Shown in pieces: positions 5,478-20,048 of a stretch of DNA of 64,000 nt. The position numbers and the translations under genes were made by a program. The stretch's first letter is position 1. Every line of letters starts with the position of its first letter. Below the pieces are notes generated by a model. The model saw only the letters and a list, made by a program, of their open reading frames with translations, was not told the origin of the DNA and did not search any database. The stretch is from Flavipsychrobacter sp. (GTDB taxonomy: Bacteria > Bacteroidota > Bacteroidia > Chitinophagales > Chitinophagaceae), in NCBI GenBank assembly GCA_031292525.1, contig JARLGY010000018.1:186001-250000 (forward strand), read 5' to 3'.

Positions 5478-5762
5478 GAGCGAGGTTTAATCAAACTTTT
5501 CAGGTAAAAAGTGACCAGAAAATTATAACATTATAGGGTATACCCATCTGCTGTGATATGTAATTCTAGAGTGGTAGTGCATTTACGGATCAATTGGAGA
5601 ATCTAATAAAATAGATTTAAAAGTCAAGGGTATTTTTCACGTAAAAAAAAATTATTAATACTTTGCAAATTAAAATATGACTTTGTATATTTACTTAGTT
5701 AATGCATAAAAAGAAGATGACCTTTGCGTTACCATAGCATATTTAAAATTCATTTAAGATTT

Positions 5763-7739
5763 ATGGCTAGGAAGAAGATATTCCAATTTTTATACGGTTT
5801 AGTAATTTTGATAACCTTATGCAATGGATGCCTAGCACAGGTTACTACTGACAACGATACCGCATTTTTATACATTAATCCAATTCAGCTTAATAAAAAC
5901 CTTACTGAAAAAGAAAAAAGTATTGTATTAGATGCGCTAATTAAATATAATGTCAGAAATAGTGTTACAACAACTATACAAGTTCAACCCAATGATAATA
6001 TATATTCTATAATAAACAAAAATTTTAATTTTTCAGATAGTAAAGATTATTATTCTGCTAAAGTCATTTCAGACAATATAAAAAAATTAAATAACATAGA
6101 TGGAGGTAATAAAATATATTCTGGTGACATTTTAACAATACCACAATTCCCATCCAAACCAGGAAAATTATCTTCAGTAACCTATACACAACTGGTCAGC
6201 AATAATTCAAATCATATAATTACCTATAAAACAGAAGACGTAGTTCATAATAATATGAGCTATAATGAACCGATGGAACAAACGGCAGCTCAAAGCCAGG
6301 CCTCCTTATGGGCTATTAAAGCATCAGAATCTCAAATCCAAGAAATCTTCGACTCCATACCTTCGGAAATTTTATCCAAAATATATGGTCCAGCCATTTT
6401 AGAATTTACACAGCCACATAATATAAACGTCAAATTTCCTGATACTTCAAAAAGTATTGACATTGAGAGTTTTAAAATGGGGGAGGTCGAAAAAGTAGTA
6501 GATAGTCAAATATCGAAAATAGATCCTCAATATTTCGGCAAATATTATGTACTGGATTATTTTGGTGAAAGCTGTTCACATGGAAATAAAGTTTACAATG
6601 TTATACAGCAAATTTTTAAAGATTATAATATCGAAATCCCAAAAGAAAAGATTGTGTTAGTTCCAATTAACTATTATCAAAATAAAGAGGCTTCATTGTC
6701 CTTTTTAAAGAGCTATTACTCAAACATGAACGATAATGGCGACAGTGAGCTTAAGTTGAAAAAACTTGATGGATTAAGCACGGTTGAAAACCTAAAGAGA
6801 ATGAACACCCCTTCGGATGAAAGTGCAATACCAGAGAAATATTTAAGTGCTCGAATAAATACATGTTATGATTCAACTCCCGATGTAATTTCTGCATCAT
6901 TCTATGCAACAGTATACGAAGCTGATGTAATGCCTAAATACATTAATAGTTCAACTAACTTCGTTGTCGCAGGGTTGGATGAAGAAGGGAAAATAATTGA
7001 AGATCTAAGTTTTAGAACTCCTTCACCACATACAAAGATCGGCAATATAGAACCTTTATATACATGTTATACCCAATACACTATATTAGGATCAATCATT
7101 GTTGGATGTTTAATGAATGACAGCTCTTTTTTTGGTATATATTCTAAAAATGGGGATAGGGTTACAACTTTAGGAACTGGCATCGGCTGGGGGAATAATG
7201 AATTTAATTGTATTTTATCGAAAGATTACGGGACAAGTTTTGCCACACCCGAAATTGCCGCTAAACTTTTTATTGCAAAGGCTTTTTGGCGATCTAAACA
7301 ACAAACTATAGACCCCAAAGAAGCTAGAATTAGACTACTCCTAGCCTCAGACATCAAACCAAAACTAATAGGAAAATTTGCTTCTGGAGGTGTGGTGAAT
7401 CTTTCCAAATTAATACAAATAAAAAATGGTTTTACCGAGACTAACTCTGGGATAATATCATCTTCTACTATTATGCCAGGTTCCTATATACAATACGAAA
7501 ATAGTTGTACCCTACTCTTTCAGAGGTTAAAACATAATGACCCTAGTTCGATCTGTGGGATATACTTTTCGGATAATTCTTCATACTGCTTTATAGAATC
7601 ATCTATGATTTGGGAAAAAATGGACATCCTTAATATAAAAATTATTTTAAAAAGTGGGGAGTTTATTGATACGCTTAATTCTGTTTCTGAAATAAAAAAT
7701 AAATATAGAGAAATAATTTCTTTGTCTAATCCTAATTAA
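5763..7739 (+). CDS. Secreted LysM-like plus divergent subtilase-like protein
   Basis: About 658 residues. A signal peptide (ILITLCNGCLAQ) starts the protein; the Cys could also make it a lipoprotein. Residues about 70-127 look like a LysM module (VQPNDNIYSI ... IYSGDILTIP). The C-terminal half resembles an S8 subtilase: Asp265 in YYVLDYF, His273 in CSHGNKV, Ser492 in GTSFATPEIAAK. Oddities: Asp and His are only eight residues apart (about 30 in subtilisin). The usual AAGN oxyanion segment reads VVAGLDEEG, so the Asn is missing. Activity is therefore uncertain. The ATG at 5763 is chosen over an upstream TTG because it begins the signal peptide. The next secreted gene starts 14 bases on, forming a two-gene operon in an AT-rich island. 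Confidence 0.7.
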   Translation: MARKKIFQFLYGLVILITLCNGCLAQVTTDNDTAFLYINPIQLNKNLTEKEKSIVLDALIKYNVRNSVTTTIQVQPNDNIYSIINKNFNFSDSKDYYSAKVISDNIKKLNNIDGGNKIYSGDILTIPQFPSKPGKLSSVTYTQLVSNNSNHIITYKTEDVVHNNMSYNEPMEQTAAQSQASLWAIKASESQIQEIFDSIPSEILSKIYGPAILEFTQPHNINVKFPDTSKSIDIESFKMGEVEKVVDSQISKIDPQYFGKYYVLDYFGESCSHGNKVYNVIQQIFKDYNIEIPKEKIVLVPINYYQNKEASLSFLKSYYSNMNDNGDSELKLKKLDGLSTVENLKRMNTPSDESAIPEKYLSARINTCYDSTPDVISASFYATVYEADVMPKYINSSTNFVVAGLDEEGKIIEDLSFRTPSPHTKIGNIEPLYTCYTQYTILGSIIVGCLMNDSSFFGIYSKNGDRVTTLGTGIGWGNNEFNCILSKDYGTSFATPEIAAKLFIAKAFWRSKQQTIDPKEARIRLLLASDIKPKLIGKFASGGVVNLSKLIQIKNGFTETNSGIISSSTIMPGSYIQYENSCTLLFQRLKHNDPSSICGIYFSDNSSYCFIESSMIWEKMDILNIKIILKSGEFIDTLNSVSEIKNKYREIISLSNPN

Positions 7740-7753
7740 AAAACAAACCAAAA

Positions 7754-8611
7754 ATGAAAAAAGTAACATCGTTGATTACCGCATTTATTCTTCTGGTATC
7801 TTACCAACAATGCCTAGCCCAAAACTACAATAGGATTATGGGTAGAGCAATAAAACGTGCCGTTGGTAAAGATTTAAGAGGATTCCAAACGTTTAGTTAT
7901 CCTACAGATAATTTTGGACTAATTACCTCTTATGTAAATTCTGTTTCACCTGAAAATTTTATTTGTGATATGTGGAATTGCATAGGAGTCAATTCAACGG
8001 CTGGATTATCAAGCATTGAATGGCTAAAAATGAAGGATTTTGCTGGTGTTGGCTCAGGTGGGGCAATTACTCTATCACAACAACGTAAAACAAAGTTGGC
8101 TATAAACGTTCTACTACCTAAAATATATGATGTAATCGGTATAACTGGTGGGTTCAGTGCCGAGAGAACTACAAATATCACAATTTCAATCGGGCAGGCT
8201 TATTTTCGAAATCTAAGAAAAGATCCAATGACTTCCTATATTAACGGTCTAGATAACTCTTCGTCCCTAAAGAAGGCATATCTTAATGGTAATTTAGTGT
8301 TAATAGTGTCAGATTGTGTCATCGAAGATTTGTCAGTATCGGTAACAGTTAATAGCGAAGATTCTGCAAAAATTAATGCAAAGTTTGGGGACGCTGCTAC
8401 GTCTAAGATTTTTTCAGACGCTTCTCTATCAGTAGAAGTTGACAGGTCATCGACTGGAACATATACATTTAAAGTTTCCCATCCGATCATATTTGCTCGC
8501 TTGGCTAAGAAACAGCCGAGTGCTGGAACGCTAGGAGCCGAAAATAATTTCGACAGTTGGAAAAGTATCGTGGTTACTGAAGATCCAAGTAAATTAAAGA
8601 GACATAATTAA
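7754..8611 (+). CDS. Secreted protein of unknown function paired with the subtilase-like gene
   Basis: 285 residues with a clear signal peptide ending LVSYQQCLAQ, the same final residues (CLAQ) as the preceding gene. I do not recognise the family. The middle has a glycine-rich stretch (AGVGSGGAITLSQQRK) and the second half alternates in a beta-rich way (LVLIVSDCVIEDLSVSVTV ... TYTFKVSHPIIFARL). A loose resemblance to the strand order of gasdermin-type pore-forming domains can be imagined, but the export signal argues against it and no diagnostic motif is present. Position 14 bases after the protease-like gene suggests substrate, inhibitor or partner. A terminator-like hairpin follows. Confidence 0.65.
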   Translation: MKKVTSLITAFILLVSYQQCLAQNYNRIMGRAIKRAVGKDLRGFQTFSYPTDNFGLITSYVNSVSPENFICDMWNCIGVNSTAGLSSIEWLKMKDFAGVGSGGAITLSQQRKTKLAINVLLPKIYDVIGITGGFSAERTTNITISIGQAYFRNLRKDPMTSYINGLDNSSSLKKAYLNGNLVLIVSDCVIEDLSVSVTVNSEDSAKINAKFGDAATSKIFSDASLSVEVDRSSTGTYTFKVSHPIIFARLAKKQPSAGTLGAENNFDSWKSIVVTEDPSKLKRHN

Positions 8612-8644: not shown

Positions 8645-8671
8645 GGTTGCCTTTAGACAACCCCTTTTTTT
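8645..8671 (+). terminator. Rho-independent terminator after the secreted pair
   Basis: GGTTG (8645-8649) pairs with CAACC (8658-8662); the inner stem has one mismatch. Seven T residues follow. It closes the 5763-8611 operon and separates it from the SMEK-like gene. Confidence 0.6.
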
Positions 8672-8977
8672 GTTTAATAATTGGCAATACCTTATATCAT
8701 ACCCAGTATTGGAGCCGTACGAGTTGATTTGTCTGATTCTGATTTATTAAAAGCGTCTGAGGAGAAAATTAAGGACGAAGTATTGCTTCAATACAACAAC
8801 AAACAATTACTTGGATGGACAGAATATGATAAAGACTGCAAAGAAATAAAAACACATCCTACATCGAGCCAAGGCAATAGAATATTTATTGTTGGAGTGA
8901 TTTGTTTTGTTCTATGGTTATTGAGTAGATTAGTGAAAAGAAAAAAAGAAAAATTCTTAGATAGTAAATTAGACCGT

Positions 8978-9355
8978 ATGCTTTCACGAGGGATAATTTT
9001 TGGAAAAATTGTTGACGATTTGGGGCTTTTACAATTTCAAGTTAAAGAAAGGAATAAACTTGGACAGTTCGATCTTACTAAAGTTTGCGAAGAGTTTTTT
9101 AGAGAAGTCCTTTCATTAACGTATAAGTTCTCATTAAAAAACCTTAATCAGAATCGAAGTAACGAACCTGGGCTTGATTTAGGTAGCATTAAGGATAGAA
9201 TTGCGTATCAAGCTACGTCTCAAAAAAAGTCAGATAAAGTAAATAGTATTCTTGCAGCAATAACCGAAGAACAAGCAGCAGCTTATAGCACTATAAATGT
9301 TTTTATTATTGGAGAAAAGCAAAGTAGCTATACATTGAACCCCGAATTATCTTAA
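8978..9355 (+). CDS. SMEK-like N-terminal domain (5' half of the split gene)
   Basis: From ATG 8978 the product is 125 residues. The key blocks are QVKERNKLGQFDLTKVCEEF, FSLKNLNQNRSNEPGLDLGS and RIAYQATSQKKSDKVNS, ending with VFIIGEKQSSYTL. The D-L-G ... I-A-Y-Q-x-T-S arrangement resembles the restriction-nuclease-like core of SMEK domains, which are linked to conflict systems (from memory of the family). The frame is open upstream to 8681 (TTG, straight after a stop). That 99-codon extension encodes IFIVGVICFVLWLLSRLV, a possible membrane helix; it is not expected in the family and follows a terminator, so I do not favour it. Confidence 0.5.
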   Translation: MLSRGIIFGKIVDDLGLLQFQVKERNKLGQFDLTKVCEEFFREVLSLTYKFSLKNLNQNRSNEPGLDLGSIKDRIAYQATSQKKSDKVNSILAAITEEQAAAYSTINVFIIGEKQSSYTLNPELS

Positions 9356-9385
9356 AAATACTCTTTTAGCGAAGAGAATAATATT

Positions 9386-10012
9386 TTGGATATAACATCT
9401 CTTTTAAGAGATATTATAACATTGGATTTAGATGACTTAGAGCCTATTTATACTTTATTTGTAAAGGAATTTAGACAGATTAAAATCGAATTAGAACCGA
9501 TAGATGTAAATGGAAATTTCGAAAGCTCTTATTATAATATACTTGAGAAAAAACCATCGTCACCTCCATTAAATGCACAAAAATTCTTAGGAGAGCCCGA
9601 TGATAATGATTATGACAGTGCAATGGCGAAGCTACTAAATATTTATGAAAAACTGGCAGCAGTACCAAGGGTTACGAGAGAAATCTTAGCAATAATTGTA
9701 GACAGAGGTAGAGTTAACCAAATGCATGAGTTAAGAGATCAATACACAATCCTACCAAAAACTTTGGAAAAGATAATGCGTATTGGTCAAGAAGAATTAT
9801 TTACTGAGATTGATATTCTCGAAGATGCAGGTTTAGCATCGCTCAGGGAAGCTCATATAGACGACAGGAAAATTTATTATTTAGCCGTTAAGGGGGAACA
9901 GTTGAACTATCTGTTATCATGGTTGGTTGAACAAAAAATTTCCGTTCGTACATTCCTCAATACAATGGATTTCACCGTTCTTGACGAAAAAATTATAGAT
10001 GGTAGCATATAA
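9386..10012 (+). CDS. Winged-helix-like C-terminal part (3' half of the split SMEK gene)
   Basis: 208 codons if a TTG at 9386 is used; no ATG is available until well inside. The first third is acidic (DIITLDLDDLEPIYTLF). The last third looks like a winged helix: TLEKIMRIGQEELFTEIDIL as helix-turn-helix and DDRKIYYLAVKGEQL as the wing. By itself it would be a start-less fragment, which supports its being the tail of the upstream SMEK frame. It could regulate or target the nuclease-like domain. No partner gene is obvious; the next gene is on the opposite strand. Confidence 0.45.
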   Translation: MDITSLLRDIITLDLDDLEPIYTLFVKEFRQIKIELEPIDVNGNFESSYYNILEKKPSSPPLNAQKFLGEPDDNDYDSAMAKLLNIYEKLAAVPRVTREILAIIVDRGRVNQMHELRDQYTILPKTLEKIMRIGQEELFTEIDILEDAGLASLREAHIDDRKIYYLAVKGEQLNYLLSWLVEQKISVRTFLNTMDFTVLDEKIIDGSI

Positions 10013-15881: not shown

Positions 15882-18800
15882 CTAATTTTTAATGAAACGC
15901 TCCGTAACAGTTTTGCTATTAACAACGGTCTTGATCATATACACTCCGTTCGCCATATCGCTTATGGGTATAGTAATAGCCTGATCGGCTGTAGTTATCT
16001 GCCTTACCACCTGCCCCACTATATTGATGATGCTGATGTCTTTAGCACCACTGTAAATACTGCTGTAGTTAACATTGATGTTTGATGTAGCAGGGTTGGG
16101 TACTACAACTATTCCAGATGCATGATTGGCCACATTACTTATGCCCGTATTGCTGCTGATATCATTAAATAAAAGCTCCAGTCTCTGGCCTTGAGAGGTA
16201 GCATCTGCATTTACTGTAAACGGATAGCTGACCCCATTGGTTATAAGCGTGTAAGTATTGATGTACTTATCGTGCAGGTAAACTGTTTTGTTGGCGGGTA
16301 GGCTGTATTTGCTTACTGTAAGTGTATATGTGTTAGGCACGGAACTAATGCCCAGGCCCATCACATAGCCATCGGTTATATCGCTTTCATCGCGCGCATC
16401 CCAAGCCAGTGTTTTATTGTCTGTACTTGTTGAGCTGATATTGAACTGCGCATTTGCCATTTTATTCAGATCGCCATCTTCGCCCGCATTGCCACTTGCA
16501 CCCGGTCTTAACGACATCTCCCAACTATCCCAGAAGCTGCTGCCTTTATATACAGAAAGCTCTAGTGACGGATATACGCTGGTTGTCTTCAGAATGCCAG
16601 TGGTGGGTGTGCCATTGTTTTTGCTGCTCTCATGGAAGGTAAGCGCAATATCTGACCCGGAAGTATTGTTGGCCAGGAAGGCGCCATTGATGGGTAGTAT
16701 ATAGCTACTGGATGCTGCATAGTAAGAGGATCCATTGGTATAAGTATTACCGCCGTTTTGCTGGCCCGGTTGCACTACAAGTATGGCATTAAGGCTACTT
16801 ATATTGGTAACGGAACTGAGCAATACCTGGGATGGATACGGATTGGATATGAGGTTCCAGCCATTGGCAGGAACTGTTTCTACAATGTCGCCAGTATTGA
16901 CGGATGACGCGGTTGTAAAGGTAATATTGGACGGAGGAGTGGTACCGCTGGTAGTGCAATCCTGCCCTTTGGCCCCCCTGATGAAAGCAAGGATACCGTT
17001 GGATACGCTGCTGCCGGACTGTGCTGCGGGAAAGGCTGCTGTGCCATTGGTGATACCAGTATAACCACCAGTACCAGCAGTGTACCTGAATACAGATGGG
17101 TTAGTATTAACGCAACCAGAACCTGCACCTGAAATGCCAGTAACATCGAAAGAAGCTTCGAGTGAAGTCAGGTCTAAGTTAGTGGTATATGGATGGCCTA
17201 AAAGGCGGTAGCCGCGCTGACCAGGTATAAAACGCTGTATGTTCACATTCCCGATTATTTTGCCCGACACTGTACCTATATGCCCTGTACCATTGGCATC
17301 GCTGATAAGTGTGAGATTGCCATTAGCATTCAGTGTATCGCCTGATGCAACTGTTACTATACCGGGAGTAGTGCCACCTGGGATATTTAAAGTATTGCCC
17401 AGGGTAGCATTGCCGTTTACAGTGAGTGTGTCCAGGCTGGATGTAGCGGTAGAAGTTTGATCGAAATAGAGTGACCCAGTTGTATTGCCATTGATGATAA
17501 GACCTGATGTTGCAGAACCTGTAATGGCGCTGGACGGGCTGGAACCAGAAATGCTGTTTACAGTAATTGTATGACCATTCAGGTTAAGGTTACCGCTACT
17601 CATCATTAGTGTACCATTTACGGTAGTGTTTGCAGAGATAGTAGTAGGCGATGAGACCTGTAGATTGGGGAAAGTAGTTTGACTGGAAGGTATATTATTG
17701 GACGTACCGCCATACTTGATAGTGGCAGTAGGATCGAGCACTCCCAAAATAGGGTAAGTGCTGTTATTGATGGTAAGTGTACGGCCAGGGCCAACATTGA
17801 TGGTAGCATTAATAGGCTGTGTCGAATTAATGGTCAGGTCGGTTGACTGGTCTACAGATATTGAAGAACCTGTACCTGAAACCGTCCAGCTGCTGCCGCT
17901 GATGGTACCTGCGCTACTACTGTCTATGTGAAAGACCTGGTTGTTTGCGGTGAACGAAGACGCAGTACTACCTGCATTAGGATATAGTTTTGTGTACCAT
18001 GTGCCGGTAACATCGAGGTTGCCGCTTGCGCCTGAATAATAATCAGTATAAGGATATAATGTGGATGCAACTATTTCGCCACCTGTAATCTGCGTGGCCG
18101 TATAGTAGTTGGTACCATTGTAGAACAATATTTGTGCTAATTGTGATGCGGAAAGATCGCCTGCAGAAGACCCTACGTAGATGCGGCCGGTAGTGCCTGC
18201 GGTACCGTTGTAGCCACCTGTCCAGCCGGTTATCACCAGTTTTTTACCGCTTGTCCATGTTACCCCGCTGCTGGCAGCAAAAGATATGGAATGTGCATTG
18301 GTACCATCCAGTATGATAACACTATGATCAGTAACCGTAAGGGTATTGAACAGGATAGCTGTGCTTGCGGCTATGGATGTGGTGCTCAGGTTACCGCCGT
18401 TCATCGTCAATGTCGGTGCGCTTGAAGTGGAAGGACCGAACACATTGCTGGTGCCAGGGTTAAGTGTCAACGTACCCGCTGCTATATTCAGTACTCCGGT
18501 AAATGAGCTTGCTGCCGATCCATTGAGCAGCAACGTACCTGCACCTGTTTTTACCAGGCCCCCGGTGCCACCATTATTGATGAATTTACCCCCATAAGTG
18601 AGCGTAGTGCCCGATGCGGTGTTGATGGTATCATTATTACTTGTGCCCGATGTTGGGCCCAATGCTATGGTGCGGTTGCTGTTCATGGTGAAGCTTGCTG
18701 TTGTGTACAGTGTGCCGCCATTGATAGTGATGTTGGTAGTGGCCGATCCGGGCACACCGCCCAGTCTGCTGTCTGTGTTTACTGATATGCCACCGCTATT

Positions 18801-20048
18801 GATCTTGATGCCGCCGGTAAATGTGTTAGCGACACTCAGTGTGAGCGTACCTGTACCGGAACGCACCAGGCCAAGAGAGAACGTTGCGCCATCTGTAATA
18901 GGCAATGTGAAATTAGTGGAAGATGCCCCGCTGATAGTGAGCACAGATGCTGCAGCCTGGCTGTTGTTGGTGAGTGTGGAGGTGGCGCCGTTGGTAACAG
19001 AGCCAACATGAGAGCCTGAGGATGCCAGTGATGCGATCTCCTGGTTGTACCCGTTAAGCGCGAATACACCTCCTGAGGTAGAAGATGAAGAGCTGCCCAG
19101 TACTACATTTGTGGTAGTAGGCAAGGCATTATTTGTGCCCAATTTTAGTTTTTGGGTCCCAGTGCTGCTCCCGTCTATATAGGTATTGCCGGTATAGGTA
19201 TTATTGTTGTTGAGCACTACCGCCCCTGCGCCTGTGCCCGGGCCATCGCAGATGTGCAGATCGGCTGTGCCTGAGATAACACCTGCATAATATAAATTTG
19301 AGGTTGTGGTAGTAGTACCCAATGCTGTAGGCATGGTAGTGTTATTGATAATGTTCCCTGTTATCGTGTCATTCACTGTGCCGCTTGATGGGGCTACCAC
19401 CAGCCCCGCAACATTGGTATTGCCCGAAACTGTAGTGGAAGATATGTAGATGGGGGCAGATATGTTTAAGGCGCTGGCGGTAAACTGAATAACATATGCT
19501 TTACCGGGAGTATTGGCTCCCTGCACTCCGTTAAACATAACAACTGAACCAGTTGAACCATTAATTCCGTTAGGATAATGCTGTAACCCACCTACGCTAG
19601 ACAACTTAATGCCACCTCCTGTCGCCGCACTCGGGTTGGTGGAGATATTAATTGTATCATTACTGGCTATGGTAATACCATAGAGACTCACCAGGTTGGT
19701 AGAAGTGGTAGCTAAAGTATAGCCCGATACATTAAAAAAGTTTTGGGCAAAAGCACTGCCGCTCACGGTAACAGTGCCTGCTGTGCCCTGATACACGCAA
19801 GTATCAATTGAGCTTTGGGGAGGATTGGTTGGCGCTGAACTGGTAGCCGTAGGGCTCCTCCAGTTACCTGCGGTCAAAAATGTGCCGCTGCCACCGGCGG
19901 CAGGAGAGGCTGATGGGTTGCCACCATTCCAGTAATAAGTTTGCGCAGAAGCGGTATTACCTAGTCCTAACAGGATGCATATGAAGCATATGCTTAAACG
20001 GTTTGTTCCCATTCTCTTTGATGTCTGTAACTGCATAGTATAATGCAT
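15882..20048 (-). CDS. Large T9SS-exported adhesin with autotransporter-type beta repeats
   Basis: 1388 residues. After a signal peptide (FICILLGLGNTASAQ) come long Ser/Thr/Asn/Gly-rich beta-helix-type repeats. Several fit the autotransporter-associated strand pattern, such as LVRSGTGTLTLSVANTFTGG and LVKTGAGTLLLNGSAASS with TLTLNPG. The last 85 residues are a type A T9SS sorting domain (VVVPNPATSNINV, then MANGVYMIKTVVNSKTVTERFIKN split over the end), so export is through T9SS and not a beta-barrel autotransporter. Role: probably surface adhesion. ATGs at 20048, 20036 and 20012 are possible starts. GC-rich codons differ from the AT-rich flank. The PID-CTERM gene follows by 22 bases. Confidence 0.85.
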   Translation of the reverse strand: MHYTMQLQTSKRMGTNRLSICFICILLGLGNTASAQTYYWNGGNPSASPAAGGSGTFLTAGNWRSPTATSSAPTNPPQSSIDTCVYQGTAGTVTVSGSAFAQNFFNVSGYTLATTSTNLVSLYGITIASNDTINISTNPSAATGGGIKLSSVGGLQHYPNGINGSTGSVVMFNGVQGANTPGKAYVIQFTASALNISAPIYISSTTVSGNTNVAGLVVAPSSGTVNDTITGNIINNTTMPTALGTTTTTSNLYYAGVISGTADLHICDGPGTGAGAVVLNNNNTYTGNTYIDGSSTGTQKLKLGTNNALPTTTNVVLGSSSSSTSGGVFALNGYNQEIASLASSGSHVGSVTNGATSTLTNNSQAAASVLTISGASSTNFTLPITDGATFSLGLVRSGTGTLTLSVANTFTGGIKINSGGISVNTDSRLGGVPGSATTNITINGGTLYTTASFTMNSNRTIALGPTSGTSNNDTINTASGTTLTYGGKFINNGGTGGLVKTGAGTLLLNGSAASSFTGVLNIAAGTLTLNPGTSNVFGPSTSSAPTLTMNGGNLSTTSIAASTAILFNTLTVTDHSVIILDGTNAHSISFAASSGVTWTSGKKLVITGWTGGYNGTAGTTGRIYVGSSAGDLSASQLAQILFYNGTNYYTATQITGGEIVASTLYPYTDYYSGASGNLDVTGTWYTKLYPNAGSTASSFTANNQVFHIDSSSAGTISGSSWTVSGTGSSISVDQSTDLTINSTQPINATINVGPGRTLTINNSTYPILGVLDPTATIKYGGTSNNIPSSQTTFPNLQVSSPTTISANTTVNGTLMMSSGNLNLNGHTITVNSISGSSPSSAITGSATSGLIINGNTTGSLYFDQTSTATSSLDTLTVNGNATLGNTLNIPGGTTPGIVTVASGDTLNANGNLTLISDANGTGHIGTVSGKIIGNVNIQRFIPGQRGYRLLGHPYTTNLDLTSLEASFDVTGISGAGSGCVNTNPSVFRYTAGTGGYTGITNGTAAFPAAQSGSSVSNGILAFIRGAKGQDCTTSGTTPPSNITFTTASSVNTGDIVETVPANGWNLISNPYPSQVLLSSVTNISSLNAILVVQPGQQNGGNTYTNGSSYYAASSSYILPINGAFLANNTSGSDIALTFHESSKNNGTPTTGILKTTSVYPSLELSVYKGSSFWDSWEMSLRPGASGNAGEDGDLNKMANAQFNISSTSTDNKTLAWDARDESDITDGYVMGLGISSVPNTYTLTVSKYSLPANKTVYLHDKYINTYTLITNGVSYPFTVNADATSQGQRLELLFNDISSNTGISNVANHASGIVVVPNPATSNINVNYSSIYSGAKDISIINIVGQVVRQITTADQAITIPISDMANGVYMIKTVVNSKTVTERFIKN

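Follow-up and report, generated by a model that had tools for sequence, protein, structure and literature searches.

An exported gasdermin-like protein beside an S8-like protease in Flavipsychrobacter: a probable exported form of the gasdermin-protease module

Introduction

According to published descriptions, bacterial gasdermins (bGSDMs) form pores once a protease has activated them, and they do so in the membrane of their own cell, in response to an intracellular signal. Can such a module also operate outside the cytoplasm? The question is raised by two adjacent genes, here called A and B, in a 64,000-nucleotide stretch of a Flavipsychrobacter sp. genome (positions 186,001 to 250,000 of contig JARLGY010000018.1, assembly GCA_031292525.1; hereafter the window). 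Their products, an S8-like protease and a gasdermin-like protein, both appear to be exported from the cytoplasm. The pair probably represents an exported form of the gasdermin-protease module, with a mechanism that we infer.

Results

A rare, co-inherited pair of genes with export signals

The pair and its export signals comprise the following features:

5763 to 7739, plus strand: gene A, exported protein of 658 residues with LysM and S8-like protease regions (open reading frame, invariant residues, LysM match, S8 profile match)
7754 to 8611, plus strand: gene B, exported gasdermin-like protein of 285 residues (PADLOC, NCBIfam and profile-profile matches)
5763 to 5837, plus strand: signal peptide of A, residues 1-25, ending GCLA/Q, the slash marking the cleavage site (sequence, hydropathy)
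7754 to 7819, plus strand: signal peptide of B, residues 1-22, ending QCLA/Q (sequence, hydropathy)
8645 to 8662, plus strand: terminator-like hairpin followed by a T-run (sequence)

Both open reading frames are present, 14 bases apart, and share the one hairpin that comes after them, as an earlier sequence-only reading of the locus had described. That reading had also pointed out near-identical signal-peptide ends, and indeed both N-termini are rich in Lys and Arg, continue with a hydrophobic segment (best 12-residue mean hydropathy 2.61 for A and 2.60 for B) and end in CLA/Q. These ends fit the Bacteroidetes Q-rule, whereby cleavage by signal peptidase I leaves Gln at the new N-terminus (PMC5837995, PMC10653852). 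The hydrophobic signal segment occurs in all three known copies of B and in none of four bGSDMs used for comparison, so that B departs from the usual picture of a bGSDM as a cytoplasmic protein lacking a signal peptide.

The sequence-only reading had named beforehand a failure of the two genes to co-occur elsewhere as grounds for giving up the pair. Single-sequence searches of 99 relatives detected A in two genomes and B in the same two. Three genomes, of three genera, contain either gene, and two of them are recorded as Chitinophagaceae. All three have A and B side by side in the same order (a gap of 14 bases, an overlap of 11 and a gap of 6, respectively). As is characteristic of bGSDM systems, a gene for a presumed protease, here the S8-like one, thus adjoins the gasdermin-like gene in each case. 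A profile of B matched 3 of the 394 genomes of the family and, among 395 genomes of the phylum, only its own; a profile of A likewise matched only its own among 396 genomes of the order. In our collection of genome contigs the A profile retrieved only the two known relatives, and B used alone found no further ones. A and B are thus a real, rare and co-inherited gene pair.

Gene B is remotely homologous to bacterial gasdermins

The only library matches of B are models of bacterial gasdermins, and they leave a short tail at its C-terminus:

8147 to 8497, plus strand: stretch of B matching prok_gasdermin, residues 132-248 (NF051890, E-value 5.9e-5; the PADLOC bGSDM model covers 176-248)
8498 to 8608, plus strand: 37-residue C-terminal tail of B, a putative inhibitory peptide (sequence after the gasdermin match; the role is predicted)

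The PADLOC bGSDM model (PDLC02986), which comes with no cut-off, matches residues 176-248 with an E-value of 1.5e-6, and the NCBIfam model NF051890 matches residues 132-248. When the bGSDM model was run over 296 genomes of the phylum, three contained matches, and the single match in the genome studied here was gene B (E 5.1e-4). Profile-profile comparison points in the same direction: a three-row profile of B aligned by hhalign to a profile of four bGSDMs over 126 columns (E 3.4e-6, probability 87.7, score 47.0), spanning the middle and second half of the gasdermin domain only, and none of 200 column-shuffled controls scored as well (best 28.0). The four bGSDMs (L011, L012, L021 and L022) had all been found with the PADLOC model, and L011 is linked by phmmer to the solved bGSDMs 8sl0 (E 1e-5) and 7n51 (E 1.5e-5) and scores 134 bits with NF051890. 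These comparisons show remote homology of B to bGSDMs at the sequence level and bear out the earlier guess that the partner of the protease resembles a pore former. Most bGSDMs carry an N-terminal cysteine for palmitoylation (PMC9612521). Mature B starts with QNYNRIMG and has none, which is not discriminating, since the same is true of three of the four comparison bGSDMs.

Several observations weigh against a gasdermin assignment. The NF051890 score of B is 22.9 bits, far below the curated cut-off of 100, and the N-terminal half of B lies outside the library matches. Only one of the three B members is recognized at all, as the two relatives match no bGSDM library model; with a hidden Markov model (HMM) derived from the four bGSDMs, B scores no more than 7-10 bits, and a single-sequence phmmer search finds nothing. 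The structure model of B is poor (predicted local distance difference test score, pLDDT, 48.7) and does not confirm a gasdermin fold. Foldseek with this model ranks the bacterial gasdermin 7n50 first, at a non-significant E-value of 0.37. VIA-align places 7n50 in row 32 of 50 (Z 2.4, root-mean-square deviation 5.8), with 142 residues the longest alignment among the 50 rows; besides gasdermin, the rows of both programs are middling and unrelated. Profile searches of the PDB with B returned no gasdermin.

A possible second exported pair

A possible second case of such a pair was found outside the window, in another family of the class. Among 249 genomes of that family the bGSDM model gave five matches, one of them to a lipoprotein in genome G1207 (locus L024):

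L024, 5912 to 8249, minus strand: gene for an exported HExxH protein, followed by one for a bGSDM-like lipoprotein (sequence, library matches)

Residues 31-214 of the lipoprotein align to positions 4-198 of the 257-position bGSDM profile (E 6.8e-7), and residues 39-218 match prok_gasdermin (E 1.8e-4). The protein has a lipobox-like FTGC, shares a YPxxNFGxGT-like phrase (IPRTDWGAGT) with B, and starts 34 bases after the HExxH protein. This partner has a signal segment ending in FAQ and a weak match to Lit peptidase (E 0.0015 and 0.018). Like Lit peptidase (U41) it is an HExxH protein, here beside a bGSDM-like protein; it differs from Lit in being exported. Two results speak against this case: the lipoprotein fails against the profile of the four bGSDMs (hhalign E 0.27, probability 0.2; HMM -0.6 bits), and its similarity to the B profile is weak (E 0.0035, probability 9). 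Among 70 genomes around G1207 the lipoprotein was found only in G1207 itself.

Might B instead be no gasdermin at all, its likeness being due to chance or very remote, so that A and B would be an exported protease and its substrate, inhibitor or folding helper? The two B members without any gasdermin match, the poor structure model and the lack of a PDB profile match would all fit this explanation. We nevertheless consider it improbable, as two libraries and a shuffle-controlled profile-profile test agree on bGSDM and as the second exported bGSDM-like protein, that of L024, also lies beside a peptidase-like gene.

Gene A encodes a likely S8-like protease with a LysM domain

Two regions were recognized in A downstream of the signal peptide:

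5979 to 6143, plus strand: LysM domain of A, residues 73-127 (PF01476, E 3.1e-5 on a fragment)
6534 to 7397, plus strand: S8-like region of A, about residues 258-545, with D265, H273 and S492 (invariant residues; profile match, E 1.6e-4)

The LysM-like domain seen in the sequence-only reading holds up: residues 60-136 scanned by themselves reach 24.2 bits with PF01476 (cut-off 20.9), and the match is absent from a scan of the whole protein. For A of the two relatives no LysM is reported; their N-terminus has a hydrophobic segment that lacks a cleavage site and is probably an anchor.

The landmarks of an S8 protease follow one another in the expected order: Asp265 closes a strand-like segment, His273 lies in HGNKV, PDVISASF and NFVVAGLD come next, and Ser492 is part of GTSFATPEIAA. 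The three catalytic residues, all listed in the earlier reading, are invariant in the three family members, which thus share the Asp-His-Ser order and the GTSxAxP serine motif of S8 proteases. None of 20,000 shuffles of A carried the S8 serine pattern of PROSITE. A profile of the three A members gave a borderline match to a profile of five S8 domains from the same genome, over 62 columns at the serine motif (E 1.6e-4, probability 50); L018 and L019, both pieces of a single S8 gene, had been excluded from the S8 profile. The spacing of only eight residues between Asp and His, noted earlier, is real; as it amounts to 10 and 11 residues in the two relatives, short spacing appears to be a family trait. 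The oxyanion Asn reported as missing is indeed replaced by Asp in A (within NFVVAGLD), but both relatives have an aligned Asn, so that its loss does not extend to the family. An Asp can stand for the oxyanion Asn in an active subtilase, as in the proprotein convertase PC2.

Other results count against a subtilase. A has no match to the Pfam S8 model PF00082 at E-values up to 5 and is not among the seven matches of a PF00082 search of its own genome at E-values up to 10; an earlier comparison with two S8 sequences reached only E 0.054. The short Asp-His spacing and the Asp at the oxyanion place are atypical, and the AlphaFold2 model (pLDDT 32.8) is too poor to confirm the fold. A weak match to Pfam Thioredoxin_8 competes over residues 259-319 (E 0.0009; 0.0005 on a fragment). 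This thioredoxin reading was set aside because CxxC is not kept, whereas HGxKV and GTSxATPE are invariant in all three A proteins. The earlier subtilase reading is therefore upheld by the motifs and by a borderline profile match, and has gained nothing from Pfam or from structure prediction. Taken together, A is likely a divergent S8-like protease, predicted to be active.

Where the two proteins would act

Neither A nor B carries the TIGR04183 tail of the type IX secretion system (T9SS), and export by this route was rejected. A protein of 1388 residues encoded elsewhere in the window (15882 to 20048, minus strand), which contains repeats of the autotransporter type and carries a T9SS type A sorting tail, served as positive control (TIGR04183, E 1.1e-10). 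The proteins were also not taken to be lipoproteins, as the cysteines before their cleavage sites lack a lipobox by eye. Given Sec signal peptides with neither a T9SS tail nor a lipobox, A and B most likely stay in the periplasm. One reservation applies: export was called by sequence reading and hydropathy, without a trained predictor.

The export of both proteins could also be read as a sign of a weapon, in line with the inter-bacterial system that the sequence-only reading had considered, with B as a secreted pore-forming toxin against competitors and A as its activating protease. Precedents exist in the CDC-like toxins (CDCL) of Elizabethkingia and other Bacteroidota, exported giant pore formers that are activated by proteases (PMC11952106); they differ from A and B in belonging to another protein family, in having two pore components and in being cut in an activation loop. 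An unlikely explanation in our view, it is at odds with the missing T9SS tail, which the control protein of the same window shows clearly, and with the LysM domain or, in the relatives, the N-terminal hydrophobic anchor, either of which would keep A in the envelope of the producer.

Genomic surroundings

Upstream of A, a candidate promoter was read from the sequence:

5662 to 5693, plus strand: possible Bacteroidota-type promoter, TTTG, 20 nucleotides, TATATTTA

Its assignment uses the consensus TTTG ... TAnnTTTG, which we take to be that of Bacteroidota. The G+C content is 31-36% across 5-10 kb of the window compared to 40-50% in the flanking 5 kb on each side. The pair is flanked by genes for an S66 LD-carboxypeptidase and a rhodanese; an empty-site test for insertion did not find the S66 gene in the single genome of the same genus, which is 69% complete. 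The same AT-rich stretch contains a second two-gene unit (8681-10012), whose first gene encodes a membrane segment and SMEK_N (Pfam E 2.3e-30; PADLOC Aga_REase-PNTD1-PNTD2, E 5.9e-24) and whose second encodes a 208-residue protein with no Pfam or PADLOC match.

In relative G332, genes for a patatin-type phospholipase effector (PADLOC E 1.7e-81) and for SoFic and HSDR_N proteins (L008 1-5941) are found within 6 kb of A and B, surroundings that are defence-island-like. In relative G010 a tyrosine recombinase is encoded 1.8 kb away from the pair, and downstream of the pair are genes for a PatG_D/PatG_C protein and a Stig1-like protein rich in cysteine (L005 1835-4170, minus strand). Viral contigs searched with B, the B and A profiles and the L024 lipoprotein yielded nothing, nor did plasmids searched with A, B, the bGSDM L011 and the L024 lipoprotein, or phages searched with A only.

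Discussion

In known systems, the protease encoded next to a bGSDM cleaves it behind a Leu or Arg some 20 residues short of the C-terminal end, which frees the pore former (PMC9612521, PMC10989679). The simplest reading of A and B is the same cleavage reaction moved outside the cytoplasm. Like the bGSDM-protease systems covered by PDLC02986 and NF051890, the pair combines a gasdermin-like protein of about 260 mature residues and a short C-terminal tail with a neighboring protease-like gene. It differs in that both proteins carry export signals, that the sequence of B is far from the curated models, and that the protease is S8-like with a LysM domain or an N-terminal hydrophobic segment. A parallel exists in fungi, where HET-Q2, a subtilisin-like serine protease, likely cuts the gasdermin HET-Q1 and removes a C-terminal fragment (PMC12881547); in contrast to A and B, these are alternative versions of one locus and form no operon.

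On balance, we lean towards A and B being a two-gene protease-gasdermin module that acts outside the cytoplasm, in effect the bGSDM-protease cell-death module transferred to the periplasm; the envelope system suspected in the sequence-only reading fits this proposal. A would be fixed to the cell wall by LysM (in the relatives, by the N-terminal hydrophobic segment), and B would be produced in an inactive state, restrained by its C-terminal tail. A disturbance of the envelope, e.g., phage entry or wall damage, may be the trigger upon which A, as an S8-type serine protease, would cut off the tail of B and so serve as both wall-bound sensor and scissors. The freed B would then oligomerize and, coming from the periplasm, perforate either the inner or the outer membrane, so that the cell dies or leaks, with whatever benefit this may bring.

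More tentatively, the Bacteroidota may harbor a class of extracytoplasmic gasdermin-protease death systems, which would have come together at least two times, with an exported S8-like protease in the Chitinophagaceae and an exported HExxH/Lit-like one in a different family of the same taxonomic class, and in which the pore would be opened from the periplasm upon wall damage. A literature search that did not take in the primary papers on bGSDMs, fungal gasdermin cleavage and CARD-gasdermin systems turned up no report of a bacterial gasdermin that is exported or bears a signal peptide, so that a description in those papers or in their supplements is possible.

The pair ties a bacterial gasdermin to a subtilase-like protease, a class represented in fungi by HET-Q2. 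If our proposal is true, the geometry of the known systems would be reversed, with the envelope or cell wall being sensed and the membrane opened from the periplasm. It would then become testable whether gasdermin pores form in the outer membrane and whether bacteria run a pyroptosis-like response to a breach of their envelope.
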